Assembly: GCF_000169375.1 (NCBI RefSeq)
Contig: NZ_AAXY01000012.1
Coordinates: 1-64,000 of the forward strand
Length of the DNA: 64,000 nt
Source: Marinobacter sp. ELB17
Lineage (GTDB): Bacteria > Pseudomonadota > Gammaproteobacteria > Pseudomonadales > Oleiphilaceae
Direction: 5' to 3'
The notes under the pieces were generated by a model that saw nothing but the letters and a program-made list of their open reading frames with translations, ran no database searches and was not told the origin of the DNA. Numbering within the stretch: position 1 is the stretch's first letter; every line of letters begins with the position of its first letter. Both the position numbers and the translations under genes were made by a program. This document shows positions 53,863 through 61,583 of this stretch, one piece after another.

Positions 53863-55327
53863 GTAACTATTCAGCTCACATCTGCAACGATCATTAAAAT
53901 TGAGTCTCATCGGTATCCATAAACGCAGGGTTTTTCCCCTGAAAGAGTAAAGCCAGCGCCTCTGTGGCTGACATCCCTTGCTTACGGCATGTTGACAGGT
54001 AACTGCGAACGCGACAAAAGATCTTCGCCCCCGTCGTGGATCGAGAACAACCGGATATTTTCTGCTGCACTTTCGTCATGCGCAGGTCGTTCTCCCCCTG
54101 ATTGTTGGTGAAGGGGACGTACTCGACATCCATAAAACGCAGAACGTCGTGCTCAAAGTTGCGCAACCTTTCCAGCAAGTTTCGGGCTTTTGATCGTTTT
54201 AACCTGCCGCGTTTCCCTGCCTCTCGCAGGCTTACATCGGGTGGTGGACATTCGCTATCTGCCTCTTCGAGACGTTGTCGATAGCGCTGTCGCCACCGTT
54301 CAGCGTCAGTGGCTGGCAAGCGGCCACCGGCATCCGCTACCGTTGTGTTCATATCGGTCAGCAGTACTTTCATCGCCTTGACCCAGTGTTGATCGTCCTG
54401 CTCCCATGCCCTCTCCAGCTCCCGAAGAGGGTGCGCATTGCACAGGGAATGGGTGCACGCGTAACGGTAGTACGGCTTTCAATGATCGTGACATAGCACT
54501 CCGCTGAAGAAGGGCAAGACGCCCATCTCGCCCATGGCCTCAATGCCACGCTTGGTGTGGGGATAGAGCAGCGTCAATGCGCTGTTGCATGAGCTCAGAT
54601 TTGGCGAGCTGAGCTTTCGCCCACTGCTCGAAATGATCCAGCTTCTCGTAAGCCTTTTTGTTGAAATTGAAGACAGAGCCGGCACTGACCGGAATACCCA
54701 TCTGCTCCTGAAAGTGGTCACGGATTCGGTCATAGGGCAACCGCTGAAACTGCGACATATAGACCGCATTGGCCTTGATGCCGATGCCATACTGTACAGG
54801 CCGACTGACCCTGTCCGGAAAGGCAGCAACACATCGATTTCCCTGGTCGTCTTTAATAACCTGTGCTCGGTATTCAGTCACGAATCGCGCGATATCAATA
54901 TCGATGACCTGCCGTGTTTCATAACCGTCCTCTTGATACCACCGTCCTTTTGGCAGAGAGCGTCGATCGACTTTCAGCTCTTTCACTGCGTCACGCTCTT
55001 TCTCAAGAAGGTTCTTGACGGAGGCGATTGCCGAATCAACGTCGATATTGTCTATTTTCAATGTCTGCCCACACCGGGATGGCTTTGTAAGACAATCATT
55101 ATCGCACGGGTTTTCAGGGCGACATTTTTGGCTCTGAGCGCTCTTATACGGCGATTAAAAAACCGATGCTGTCCGATGATCGGCATCGGTAATGACAGCC
55201 CGTCAGAAGATCTATGTCGTCGTCTATGGCCTGCGTGGTTGCATCGGTGCGTATGCCGATAAGGTGAAGAGATTCAAGCAAAAACCCTGTCAAGAACTTT
55301 CAAAAGTTTTTTGAGCTGAATAGTTAC
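53863..55327. mobile_element. Decayed IS66-family element with intact terminal inverted repeats
   Basis: Ends GTAACTATTCAGCTCA (53863-53878) and TGAGCTGAATAGTTAC (55312-55327) are perfect 16-bp inverted repeats beginning GTAA, as in IS66. The flanking 8-mers differ, so no target duplication remains. Only a tnpC-type transposase remnant is inside; no tnpA or tnpB. The 250 bases between the transposase start and the right end hold no gene; they contain a short inverted repeat near 55163 (CCGATGC / GCATCGG). Confidence 0.88.
53894..55061 (-). pseudogene. IS66-family transposase, three lesions
   Basis: Reads in pieces on the minus strand. The N-terminal piece (55061-54540) starts at KIDNIDVDSAIASVKNLLEK and jumps to VKELKVDRRSLPKGR, lacking about 70 residues of linker. 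A deletion near 54590 removes the segment expected to hold the first catalytic Asp and shifts the frame. In the second piece the expected Trp after GVLCHDH is TGA (54479-54481). The C-terminal FTNNQGENDLRMTKVQQKIS and IFCRVRSYLSTCRKQG remain. It cannot make an active enzyme. Confidence 0.9.
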
Positions 55328-55686
55328 AAACACTCAAGTATCAGCCAGACTACCCACGACGCTTTGATCATTATGATCACGCCATGCGCTGGTGTAACGA
55401 TTACGTGGAGTGGTACAACCATGTGCACCACCACCGCAGTCTTGAGGGGTTTACGCCCGCACAGGTGTTCACAGGTCGGTACGTAGACATTGCCCGAGTG
55501 CGCCAAAATGCTCTGAATGAAGCTTTTGCCGCGCATCCAGAACGGTTCAGTCGAGGACGCCCACTCGTTAAATTGCCGCCACGAGAAGTAGCTATCAACC
55601 CAATACCGGACGATGCCGAGCCATCCTTTACTGAACAAGGAGTAAACTTCCCGATGTTGCAGAGAGCCATACTGAAAGCAATTTAA
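55328..55686 (+). pseudogene. C-terminal fragment of an IS3-family transposase (orfB)
   Basis: Starts abruptly at the IS66 end and reads TLKYQPDYPRRFDHYDHAMR, then WYNHVHHHRSLEGFTPAQVF and HPERFSRGRPLVKLPP, the usual IS3 orfB C-terminus after the last catalytic Glu. The N-terminal 60-70% is absent. Probably truncated by the IS66 insertion or a later deletion. Confidence 0.85.
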
Positions 55687-58224: not shown

Positions 58225-58959
58225 TTAAGCTGCAACCTCCATGGCAACCAGCGCCTCTTTTCGCTCCGGGTTTAAGGTGACCACCGCTGCCGGTGTCCCG
58301 TTGCGTGTGTTGCCACTCCAGCGCTCTGGTTTTGCGGCTCGTGCGGCCTGATTCAGATTGTGCCGGTGTGCCAGAATCGCCGTGTCCTCACCGGAGTGGC
58401 GCTGTGCCGGTGTGACGTAACGCAGAGCGCTGTGGCGGTGCGTATAGTTATACCACTGGGCAAAGCTATGAACCCATTGTCTGGCTTCGGTCAGGCCGGT
58501 GAACCCACTGGCAAGATAACCCGGCACGTATTTACAGGTTTTGAACAACACCTCAGAAAAAGCATTGTCATTGCTGACGCGGGGCCGGCTAAATGAGGGG
58601 GCGATCTGCAGGTCGCCATGTTTTCTCAACACTCGATAAAAACTGGAGACCGAGGCGAGATAGAGCCGCTCTTCATCCATCAGTCGCACCACGATTTGAT
58701 CCGGGGGCAGGTCCGCAAACTCAGGCCGATGGCACGGTGCAAGTCTGTCCGCTTCTTCCTCGGCGGTCAGCGCGTTCGCAGGCCTGGGGCGCTCGACAAC
58801 AGGGCGCTGGTCTGCGTTGACGCCACCCTCCCGGGTCCAGCGTTGGTGCGTGCGAATGGAGATACCCAGGATTCCACACGCGGCGGTACAAGAGGCGCCG
58901 TGTTGGCAGGCTTCAGCGATCAGTGTCACGGCTTTTTGGCGATCTTCGATACTGATCAT
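58225..58959 (-). pseudogene. IS3-family single-ORF transposase with in-frame internal deletion
   Basis: 244 codons, still open. N-terminal HTH region (MISIEDRQKAVTLIAEACQH and ISIRTHQRWTREGGVNADQR) and LPPDQIVVRLMDEERLYLAS are followed by a jump from FYRVLRKHGDLQ straight into APSFSRPRVSNDNAFSEVLF. From memory of full-length relatives (about 360 residues), roughly 115 residues are missing, including both catalytic Asp residues; the Glu-region and C-terminus remain. It could be expressed as a DNA-binding but inactive protein. Confidence 0.85.
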
Positions 58960-59632: not shown

Positions 59633-59827
59633 TCAGGCAGTCATGCCCTTACTTTGGCTGACCAGCATTACACCTAGCCCCGTTGCAAACGGCGCAAGAG
59701 TGCCGGGTTCCGGCACCGCCGCTGTGAAAGGGTTGATGCGCAATGTGAACGAGCTCTGGTCGGCGTAGGGAAGAGCCGATTCAGAAGTTGCCTTAAGGCT
59801 CTTTAACTCAAAAGACGCTCTTTGGCT
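59633..59827 (-). pseudogene. Orphan C-terminal tail of a PEP-CTERM protein
   Basis: A 63-codon minus-strand frame without a start codon reads SFELKSLKATSESALPYADQ, then FTLRINPFTAAVPEPGTLAP, then FATGLGVMLVSQSKG and a stop. VPEP followed by a short hydrophobic segment and Lys is the PEP-CTERM sorting signal recognised by exosortase. The tail has its own terminator. The body is missing: the frame runs into the 3' end of the J-domain gene, so the junction is at about 59803. Confidence 0.65.
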
Positions 59828-60570
59828 TCATTAACACGGGCAGCCAGGTAGTTACTTCCGCCACGGTCCGGATGCATTTTCTGCATCATCCTACGATGAG
59901 CCTGGACGATCTCGTCCCGGTTGGCACCGGCCTCCAACCCCAGAATGTCCAGAGCCTCGCTGTCGGTCAGAGTGCCGCTGCTGTTCGACCTCTCGCGTTC
60001 ACTGTCTTGCGCACCGTTTTGGGCCCTGTCATCGCTAGCCGGATCGTCAATGCGCCAGGAGTCTCCGAAGCGGCGGTCTAAATAGGTTTCTAAAAGCCGG
60101 GCAGAGTCCTCATCCTGGCCCCGGCAATACTGCAGCAACCCGATGAATTCACTCTCGGCCAAATCCGCCAGCGCCCGCCCGGCCATAGGGCCTTTCAATA
60201 TTTCACCGGTCATATCTCCGGAGTCGTGGTCCAGGGTCATCTTGAGGATATCGCTGGAAACATGGGATTGGTTGCCCGGCTGTGCCTTTGCCTGGCCACT
60301 TCCCAAGCCCGACAAACGCCCCATCAATAGCGAAGGTAACACCCGGCGTAACAGGGGGAAAAGGAAAGCCAGCATCGCAAACAAAATGGGCAGGCGACCG
60401 GTAATGGCCATTAGGACCACCGTCACAACACCGGCAATTATTACCAACTTGAGAATAGCCGGTTTCTGCTGGCCGGGCGGCTGGTTACGCAGCCAGACCC
60501 AGGCAACAACGGTCATCACAGCAATCAAAAGCACTAATAGCACTCGGATACCTCGGGCCGATTGACCCAC
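59803..60570 (-). CDS. Membrane-anchored J-domain protein
   Basis: 255 residues. Helices at VLLVLLIAVMTVVAWVWL, LKLVIIAGVVTVVLMAI and LPILFAMLAFLFPLLRRVL. A middle region contains MTLDHDSGDMTGEILKGP. A C-terminal J domain of about 55 residues (EALDILGLEAGANRDEIVQA) carries the Hsp70-stimulating HPD motif in MQKMHPDRGGSNYLA. Layout resembles Tim14/DjlA-like membrane J-proteins. It would recruit DnaK to the inner membrane. The VWA gene lies 20 bases upstream, so they are co-transcribed. Confidence 0.88.
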   Translation of the reverse strand: MGQSARGIRVLLVLLIAVMTVVAWVWLRNQPPGQQKPAILKLVIIAGVVTVVLMAITGRLPILFAMLAFLFPLLRRVLPSLLMGRLSGLGSGQAKAQPGNQSHVSSDILKMTLDHDSGDMTGEILKGPMAGRALADLAESEFIGLLQYCRGQDEDSARLLETYLDRRFGDSWRIDDPASDDRAQNGAQDSERERSNSSGTLTDSEALDILGLEAGANRDEIVQAHRRMMQKMHPDRGGSNYLAARVNEAKERLLS

Positions 60571-60589
60571 CGGTTAATTGAAATAGGCG

Positions 60590-61297
60590 CTAACGGATTT
60601 GTTGAGTCAAGCGCTTAACTTCTGGCGAACTGCGGCTGGAATAGTCTTGCAGCGCTTTGGTTCCCCCGGAAGCATAGACCGCCACAGCGGCCATAAGATC
60701 CTTTAGCATTTGCGGGCTGTTGCTGTTAAAGGGAGCATAGGCGCCACCCGACAGTTTGGCCACCTGCTGAAACACCGCCTTGGCGTGTGCATCGGCACCC
60801 TCAAGGAACATGAACACCGGGGTGCGCAGCATGCCCAGCTCCCCGGCGATGTGGCAAAGCTCGTCTACCGGCTCCTCACAACAATCTCCGATAAACACCA
60901 CGGCTTTTACGGCCTTTGCCCGGGTTTCTTCCCTGGCGTGCGCCAAAACCCGGTGAATCTGAGTACGGCCGCCCAAGCAGGACACGCCGTTCATCAGCTT
61001 AAGTAGTTGACTGGTCTGGTTAACAAACCCCGTGGCCTTAAATTCCCCATAACCGCGGTAGTAACAAAGCTGGATGGCCAGGCCGCCCAAATCCCGGGTC
61101 GCCAGAAAAAGCTCGCTCTGCAAGTGGCAAGCCTGATCCCAGGTAGCCTCTCTGCTGGCGGTGGCATCCAGAGCAAAAATCAGCCGGCCCTGCTCACCAC
61201 TCGGCCCTCCACCTTGCTCAGGCAACTTACGGACTTGGTGGATAAACTGGTCAATCGATTGTTTATCGGATTTTTTACGGAGCTCTTTGTCAGACAT
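60590..61297 (-). CDS. VWA-domain protein
   Basis: About 235 residues from ATG 61297 (a TTG at 61309 would add four). A charged Lys-rich N-tail of about 35 residues is followed by a von Willebrand A fold whose metal site reads FALDATASREATW (D-x-T-x-S; usual D-x-S-x-S). Other elements are GGRTQIHRVLAHA and VVFIGDCCEEPVDEL, with an unusual double Cys. No signal peptide, so cytoplasmic. Function unknown. The J-domain gene follows after 20 bases. Confidence 0.85.
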   Translation of the reverse strand: MSDKELRKKSDKQSIDQFIHQVRKLPEQGGGPSGEQGRLIFALDATASREATWDQACHLQSELFLATRDLGGLAIQLCYYRGYGEFKATGFVNQTSQLLKLMNGVSCLGGRTQIHRVLAHAREETRAKAVKAVVFIGDCCEEPVDELCHIAGELGMLRTPVFMFLEGADAHAKAVFQQVAKLSGGAYAPFNSNSPQMLKDLMAAVAVYASGGTKALQDYSSRSSPEVKRLTQQIR

Positions 61298-61421: not shown

Positions 61422-61583
61422 ATTCAATTGAACACCTTCCGCGGGGGGACTTCTCCGCCAAACACTTTCATTGCGGACATACGTGCCTTGCCTAATGGTG
61501 CTTTGCTGCTACTATGAAGGTTCAATTGAACATCTTATAACAACAACTTAGCGAAACGGGTCCTTTCAGGATGTTCAATTCAA
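61422..61583. promoter_or_regulatory. Three palindromic TTCAATTGAA-type sites before phnD
   Basis: ATTCAATTGAAC at 61422-61433, perfect palindrome GTTCAATTGAAC at 61520-61531, and half-matching TGTTCAATTCAA at 61572-61583, all between the divergent VWA gene and phnD. The spacing between the first two is 98 bases. They look like operator sites for a dimeric regulator of the phn genes and perhaps the VWA/J-domain operon. I do not see a Pho box. Confidence 0.55.

Follow-up and report, generated by a model that had tools for sequence, protein, structure and literature searches.

The described proteins closest to this locus include membrane J proteins and VWA proteins. Tim14 (Pam18) has an N-terminal membrane anchor, and in bacteria, TimB of Caulobacter is reportedly a membrane protein whose J domain resembles that of Tim14. 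DjlA also consists of a membrane anchor and a C-terminal J domain. The VWA proteins of large machines (Rpn10, a TFIIH subunit, Sec23/24) and bacterial BatB are receptors or scaffolds.

In the window, i.e. the whole stretch of 64,000 nucleotides that was analysed, a VWA gene is followed on the minus strand by the gene of a membrane J protein, here called the long J, with 19 bases between them, see Table 1. The two-gene unit proposed by a reading of the sequence alone, a membrane J protein and a VWA protein, is found as described, with both ORFs present and adjacent. The host genome is 4.9 Mb, and the nearest named loci with a VWA gene are from Marinobacter. The parts are of known kinds and their fixed combination appears not to have been named; our searches, in the literature those of open-licence papers, found no named system composed of a VWA protein and a membrane J protein.

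In a phmmer search of solved structures, the best match of the J protein is yeast TIM14 (2guz_A, E 1.7e-7, the next 1.2e-4). The same structure is ranked first when the predicted model is compared using VIA (Z 10.8 over 59 residues, the next 8.5), while Foldseek gave no match to the model reaching E 0.001. The likeness to Tim14/Pam18 (PDB 2guz) also includes the C-terminal J domain, ending HPD-x-GGS-x-(Y/F)LA...N-x-AK in the J protein, and an N-terminal membrane anchor according to hydropathy and predicted helices. However, the J protein differs by an extra middle domain of about 80 residues, by having two or three hydrophobic helices and by its operon partner, the VWA protein.

As Tim14 ranks first among solved structures in both comparisons, the pair could be a bacterial import motor, in which the J protein drives polypeptides through an inner-membrane channel. 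We regard this as very unlikely. Tim44 (PF04280) was found in 0 of the 29 relatives that carry the VWA gene, which rules out a Tim44 link for these genomes, and because this partner is absent we do not file the J protein as Tim14. Further, no channel gene was seen by eye among the common neighbour clusters, and we know of no counterpart of the middle domain or of the VWA protein in the mitochondrial import motor. Pam16 (PF03656) was found in none of 14 control genomes, Caulobacter among them.

DjlA is the best NCBIfam match of the J region, but with 24.7 bits against a cut-off of 162, and Pfam at E up to 1 reports no TerB domain in the J protein. The VWA protein has its fold in common with Rpn10, the TFIIH subunit, Sec23/24 and BatB (Z about 16-18), but the identity is only 8-15 %, and the D-x-T-x-S site with the GG-x-TQ and GD-x-x-EE blocks marks a family of its own. 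A likeness to MoxR-VWA systems is seen in a weak CoxE similarity (E up to 0.1), present in 7 of 22 members of the VWA family; in contrast to such systems, the neighbours in the window are phn genes and a transposase-like ORF. This ORF (Pfam rve_3, 58225-58959) is located downstream of the pair, and other ORFs with the appearance of transposases are found at about 53894-55686. A MoxR partner was rejected, as tblastn with one MoxR query gave a match in one of 142 wide stretches (L189). In that stretch, from genome G090, a MoxR-DUF58-VWA/TPR group lies upstream of the VWA gene on the same strand.

Table 1. Position of the VWA-J pair, of its protein features and of the palindromes in the window.
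Feature	Coordinates	Strand	Basis or remark
VWA protein ORF, 235 aa	60590-61297, ATG at 61297	minus	
MIDAS-like motif D44-A-T46-A-S48	61154-61168	minus	D44, T46, S48 in 150/150
Metal-site T112 (GG-x-TQ motif)	60962-60964	minus	150/150
Metal-site D138 (GD-x-x-EE motif)	60884-60886	minus	150/150; two following residues vary
Membrane J protein ORF (long J), 255 aa	59803-60570, GTG at 60570	minus	
First hydrophobic stretch of J, residues 7-27	60490-60552	minus	Kyte-Doolittle windows >1.6; model helix 2-28
Second hydrophobic stretch of J, residues 36-57	60400-60465	minus	Hydropathy; model helix 32-57
J middle domain, residues about 100-180	60031-60273	minus	Predicted model, conserved positions
Tim14/Pam18-type J domain, residues 203-254	59809-59964	minus	Match to yeast TIM14 2guz_A
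HPD motif, residues 233-235	59866-59874	minus	
Three palindrome copies	61422-61433, 61520-61531, 61572-61583	none	Go with phnD, not with VWA-J

Folds and conserved motifs of the two proteins

The VWA protein is poorly recognised by sequence. Its VWA_2 match is weak (E 0.12, below the Pfam threshold), and the Pfam VWA match is weak in the whole family, where it is found in 15 of 22 members at E up to 0.1. An NCBIfam scan at E up to 1 gave no family, the search of solved structures gave no meaningful match, and the PADLOC defence scan gave no match. The predicted structure (pLDDT 84.5, pTM 0.79), in contrast, has a clear VWA (Rossmann-like) fold. Foldseek ranks human CMG2 first, with its VWA domain (E 1.3e-8); next come VWF A3, Rpn10 and integrin I domains. 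In VIA a TFIIH chain, which we take to be p44, scores highest (Z 18.4, rmsd 2.6 over 172 residues, 13 % identity). By eye, the N terminus has no hydrophobic stretch and the protein is probably cytoplasmic.

Residue conservation was counted over 150 unique VWA sequences, each of at least 190 residues. The MIDAS signature, D-x-S-x-S...T...D, is present as the variant D-x-T-x-S together with T112 and D138, forming a putative metal site. The unusual DATAS site pointed out by the sequence-only reading holds across the family, with D-A-T-x-S in 150/150. Besides the metal-site residues, A45, R49, W53, G110, Q113, E141 and E142 are invariant (150/150), and C107 is kept in 149/150. The double-Cys motif, also mentioned in that reading, did not survive the comparison: only 71 of the 150 sequences have CC directly after D138. 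The metal site is thus fixed, while the double Cys is confined to some members, and we dismissed it as a defining feature.

In the J protein the HPD motif is found, and hydropathy and predicted helices agree on a predicted membrane anchor, in line with the claim of an HPD-bearing J domain placed at the membrane. In addition to the two hydrophobic stretches in Table 1, there is a weaker third at about residues 60-83 by hydropathy (model helix 60-88). The middle domain is modelled as three strands (101-124) and several helices from residue 139. The pTM of the whole model is only 0.39, so the relative placement of the domains is not given by it. PADLOC found a single weak match, to a '2TM' effector model (E 0.0026, residues 11-113), which we put down to hydrophobic similarity.

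In Pfam the J protein matches DnaJ (E 1.1e-5) and Pam16 (E 5.8e-7) slightly below the gathering scores, and in the genome searches both models pass these scores. Two alignments of chosen sequences were made, A1 with 22 sequences and A2 with 21; A2 omits L040, L046 and L106, which were cut by the choice of start. At E up to 0.1, DnaJ is found in 21/21 and Pam16 in 18/21 members of the J family. The HPD motif is invariant in the alignment, and all J rows linked to VWA in which it is covered have it intact (186 redundant rows; six rows do not cover the motif).

Linkage and co-occurrence of the VWA and J genes

Adjacency of the two genes across genomes had been proposed beforehand as a check, and it is borne out by the following counts. 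Scanning genome_contigs with the VWA protein gave 142 loci, of which 80 were kept. In 79 of these the J gene is downstream of the VWA gene on the same strand; in the 80th, L084, the contig stops 122 bases past the VWA match. The taxa include Marinobacter, Pseudomonas/Halopseudomonas, Natronospirillum, Nitrincola, Marinobacterium and Elioraea, as well as MAGs labelled Nitrospirales and Poribacteria. In a draw from the class of the window, 33 of 276 genomes have a VWA match, and for 32 of these, own genome included, a same-strand J gene is found within about 1.3 kb. The remaining match (G296), the one with a low score, lies at a contig edge.

Among 397 Pseudomonadota genomes, 38 have a VWA match, 37 of them high-scoring, and all 37 carry the long J. 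For 35 of the 37 the distance is within 252 bases. In G675 it is 1163 bases, with an opposite-strand gene in between, and in G449 both genes are kept, unlinked, about 0.95 Mb apart. In G625 a low-scoring VWA fragment lies where a contig begins, and no J gene was found in the 9 kb taken; G625 and G296 are excluded from the counts of full-scoring matches.

In the class of G545, which we take to be Alphaproteobacteria from its neighbours and from named plasmids of Azospirillum, Microvirga and Methylobacterium, the VWA gene is found in 107 of 289 genomes. Here the neighbours were checked in 20 stretches only (nine long open frames, three low scores, four double copies and four ordinary members), 92 of about 107 matches being left out. 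A same-strand J gene lies within 331 bases in 18 of the 20. The others are G910 (L269), a congener of G449 (L188, L247), with no J gene beside the VWA gene, and a VWA copy in G777 with an internal stop and no J gene up to the contig end. A fusion of VWA and J was looked for and not seen in these 20 further stretches. The assemblies G750 (L263, L264) and G916 (L265, L266) hold two VWA-J pairs each; both assemblies are highly fragmented and might contain mixed strains.

A third conserved partner gene was also considered and rejected. Among the 45 neighbour clusters listed for the 80 loci, with names judged by eye, the commonest besides the pair itself is present at 32/80 loci. The pair is also carried by plasmids, with 12 VWA records (Azospirillum 7, Microvirga 4, Methylobacterium 1); in the two records inspected, a DnaJ-domain gene adjoins the VWA gene. 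A search for phage carriage of the pair gave no match.

The VWA protein was found in 29 of 58 relatives, and within Marinobacter the occurrence of the pair is patchy. The long J (E < 1e-55) is present in all 29, and in one of the 29 relatives without VWA (G042). The relatives and the 80 loci overlap in species, so the locus counts are not independent. Of the 397 Pseudomonadota genomes, 37 have both genes and 15 have J alone (Fisher p 9e-39, uncorrected for shared descent). Common descent accounts for part of the linkage and of the co-occurrence. The dependence is one-way: neither in the 397-genome nor in the 58-genome draw is a full-scoring VWA found without the long J. A strict tie of the long J to VWA is ruled out, as 15 of 52 J-bearing genomes have no VWA. 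From these genomes and G042 it follows that the J protein has a role of its own, and the genomes with J only are natural comparisons for the pair.

The one-way dependence is what would be expected if the VWA protein were the client and the J protein its dedicated folding or membrane-targeting chaperone, with VWA working in an unrelated process. A private chaperone encoded just after its protein would also match the gene order. However, there is no sign that the VWA protein needs folding help, and the genomes with J only keep the middle domain and, in 12 of 15, an intact HPD, i.e. the J protein has other work to do. We find this explanation unlikely. In the three other J-only stretches the HPD is altered, to NAD in L235 and L240 and to YPD in L243, which resembles the degenerate J domain of Tim16.

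A frequent gene order is DUF1489 - (VWA) - J - D-Ala-D-Ala carboxypeptidase - phasin - ClpS - ClpA. The block of DUF1489, ClpS and ClpA, mostly with phasin, is seen with VWA in L190, L193, L198, L199, L202, L204 and L205, and with J only in L233-L235, L237, L240, L242, L243, L245 and L246. Since VWA sits between DUF1489 and J in the same block elsewhere, its loss or gain occurred within the block. A search for DUF1489 in open-licence papers found nothing.

Of the 18 stretches with VWA (L188-L205), 10 contain ClpS and ClpA, as do 11 of the 15 with J only (L232-L246), which could indicate that the pair feeds or regulates proteolysis by handing membrane or damaged proteins to the Clp machine. We consider this quite improbable. 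Neither Clp gene was seen at the 80 loci L038-L117; the association may therefore be no more than old synteny within a single class, and in L192 the Clp genes are on the other strand with other genes in between.

The phn genes and their palindromes

In the window the pair is divergent from phnD, with a 331-base spacer between the ATG of VWA and that of phnD (61629, opposite strand). In NCBIfam, PhnC scores above its cut-off, and the substrate-binding protein is accepted by the phosphate/phosphite/phosphonate subfamily model but rejected by the PhnD equivalog; phnE extends beyond the end of the window. The element TTCAATTGAAC is repeated in the spacer. It has five matches in the window with up to one mismatch, both strands counted, compared with a mean of 0.92 in shuffled sequences, 2 of 100 shuffles reaching five.

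From this arrangement the sequence-only reading had suggested that the palindromes control the pair and phnDCE jointly, and had proposed to check whether the pair is always found near phn genes. Neither a phn link nor shared control is supported by the counts. Apart from the window's own genome (G000), phnD adjoins the pair in G004 and G026, i.e. in 3 of 29 VWA-bearing relatives, and among the 80 loci only in L038, from M. gelidimuriae. A close phnD (E up to 6e-178) is present in 14 of the 58 relatives; in G036 it is some 13 kb from the pair. The palindrome GTTCAATTGAAC, with up to one mismatch, precedes phnD in 14/14 close orthologs (L210-L223), 11 of which have no VWA-J alongside. None of six loci with a more distant PhnD has it. 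In the 500 bases preceding VWA, it is seen at 3 of 80 loci with up to two mismatches, and with up to one mismatch only at L038.

From its positions in the sequence, we assign the palindrome to the control of phnD, probably as the operator of a regulator of the phn importer. A phn link with shared control is ruled out as a general rule by the neighbourhood and palindrome counts. That the VWA-J pair belongs to phosphonate uptake would explain the divergent neighbours in the window, G004, G026 and L038, but against the counts above this explanation has hardly any chance.

A possible role of the pair at the membrane

Pairwise distances were taken over 119 loci thinned at 5 % VWA distance. The VWA distances correlate with those of the J middle domain with r 0.92 (partial 0.77 given the J domain), and with those of the J domain with r 0.81 (partial 0.36). 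The middle domain gives the higher value in 300/300 draws of 40 random columns each, and also for rate-matched columns (0.72 against 0.47). This is a hint from sequence distances, comparing parts of J without an unrelated-gene control, that VWA co-varies best with the J middle domain.

We tentatively favour a membrane-tethered module that recruits DnaK, in which the VWA protein is a metal-dependent receptor or scaffold docked on the J protein. The two genes would encode one functional unit. Anchored in the inner membrane through its N-terminal helices, the J protein would stimulate DnaK there by its Tim14/Pam18-type J domain, presumably on the cytoplasmic side; as the HPD is intact, J most likely recruits DnaK to the membrane. 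The VWA protein would bind J, most likely through the middle domain. With its metal-site residues kept, it may bind a metal and act as a metal-dependent receptor or scaffold, bringing a client to the membrane-bound DnaK cycle for the process that the pair would serve. An Hsp70-linked role in assembly or quality control, as raised by the sequence-only reading, is plausible.

A wider form of the proposed module is more doubtful. Here the pair would be an unnamed, widespread two-part system in which a metal-site VWA receptor sits on a membrane J protein of the Tim14 type, which triggers DnaK at the inner membrane. It would be a bacterial counterpart of the posting of mitochondrial Hsp70 at the import channel, with VWA in place of the channel-bound scaffold. 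If VWA and J do form a complex, they would constitute an Hsp70 module stationed at the membrane, its receptor carrying a metal site, and would allow the working of a Tim14-type J domain to be studied in bacteria, outside mitochondria.

The VWA-J pair is tightly conserved, its function has no name, and it is annotated by generic domain names only. On the plasmids the annotations read 'VWA domain-containing protein', 'hypothetical protein' and 'DnaJ domain-containing protein'.

In the own genome, one full-length Hsp70 match adjoins a J protein of DnaJ length, and there is one short partial match. A shorter Tim14-like J protein of about 160-215 aa, with an anchor and a J domain and no middle domain, is present in 34 of 37 genomes of the genus, with or without VWA. 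In the own genome it has 179 aa and is located at G000:C75:373256-373762 (L187:5239-5778).
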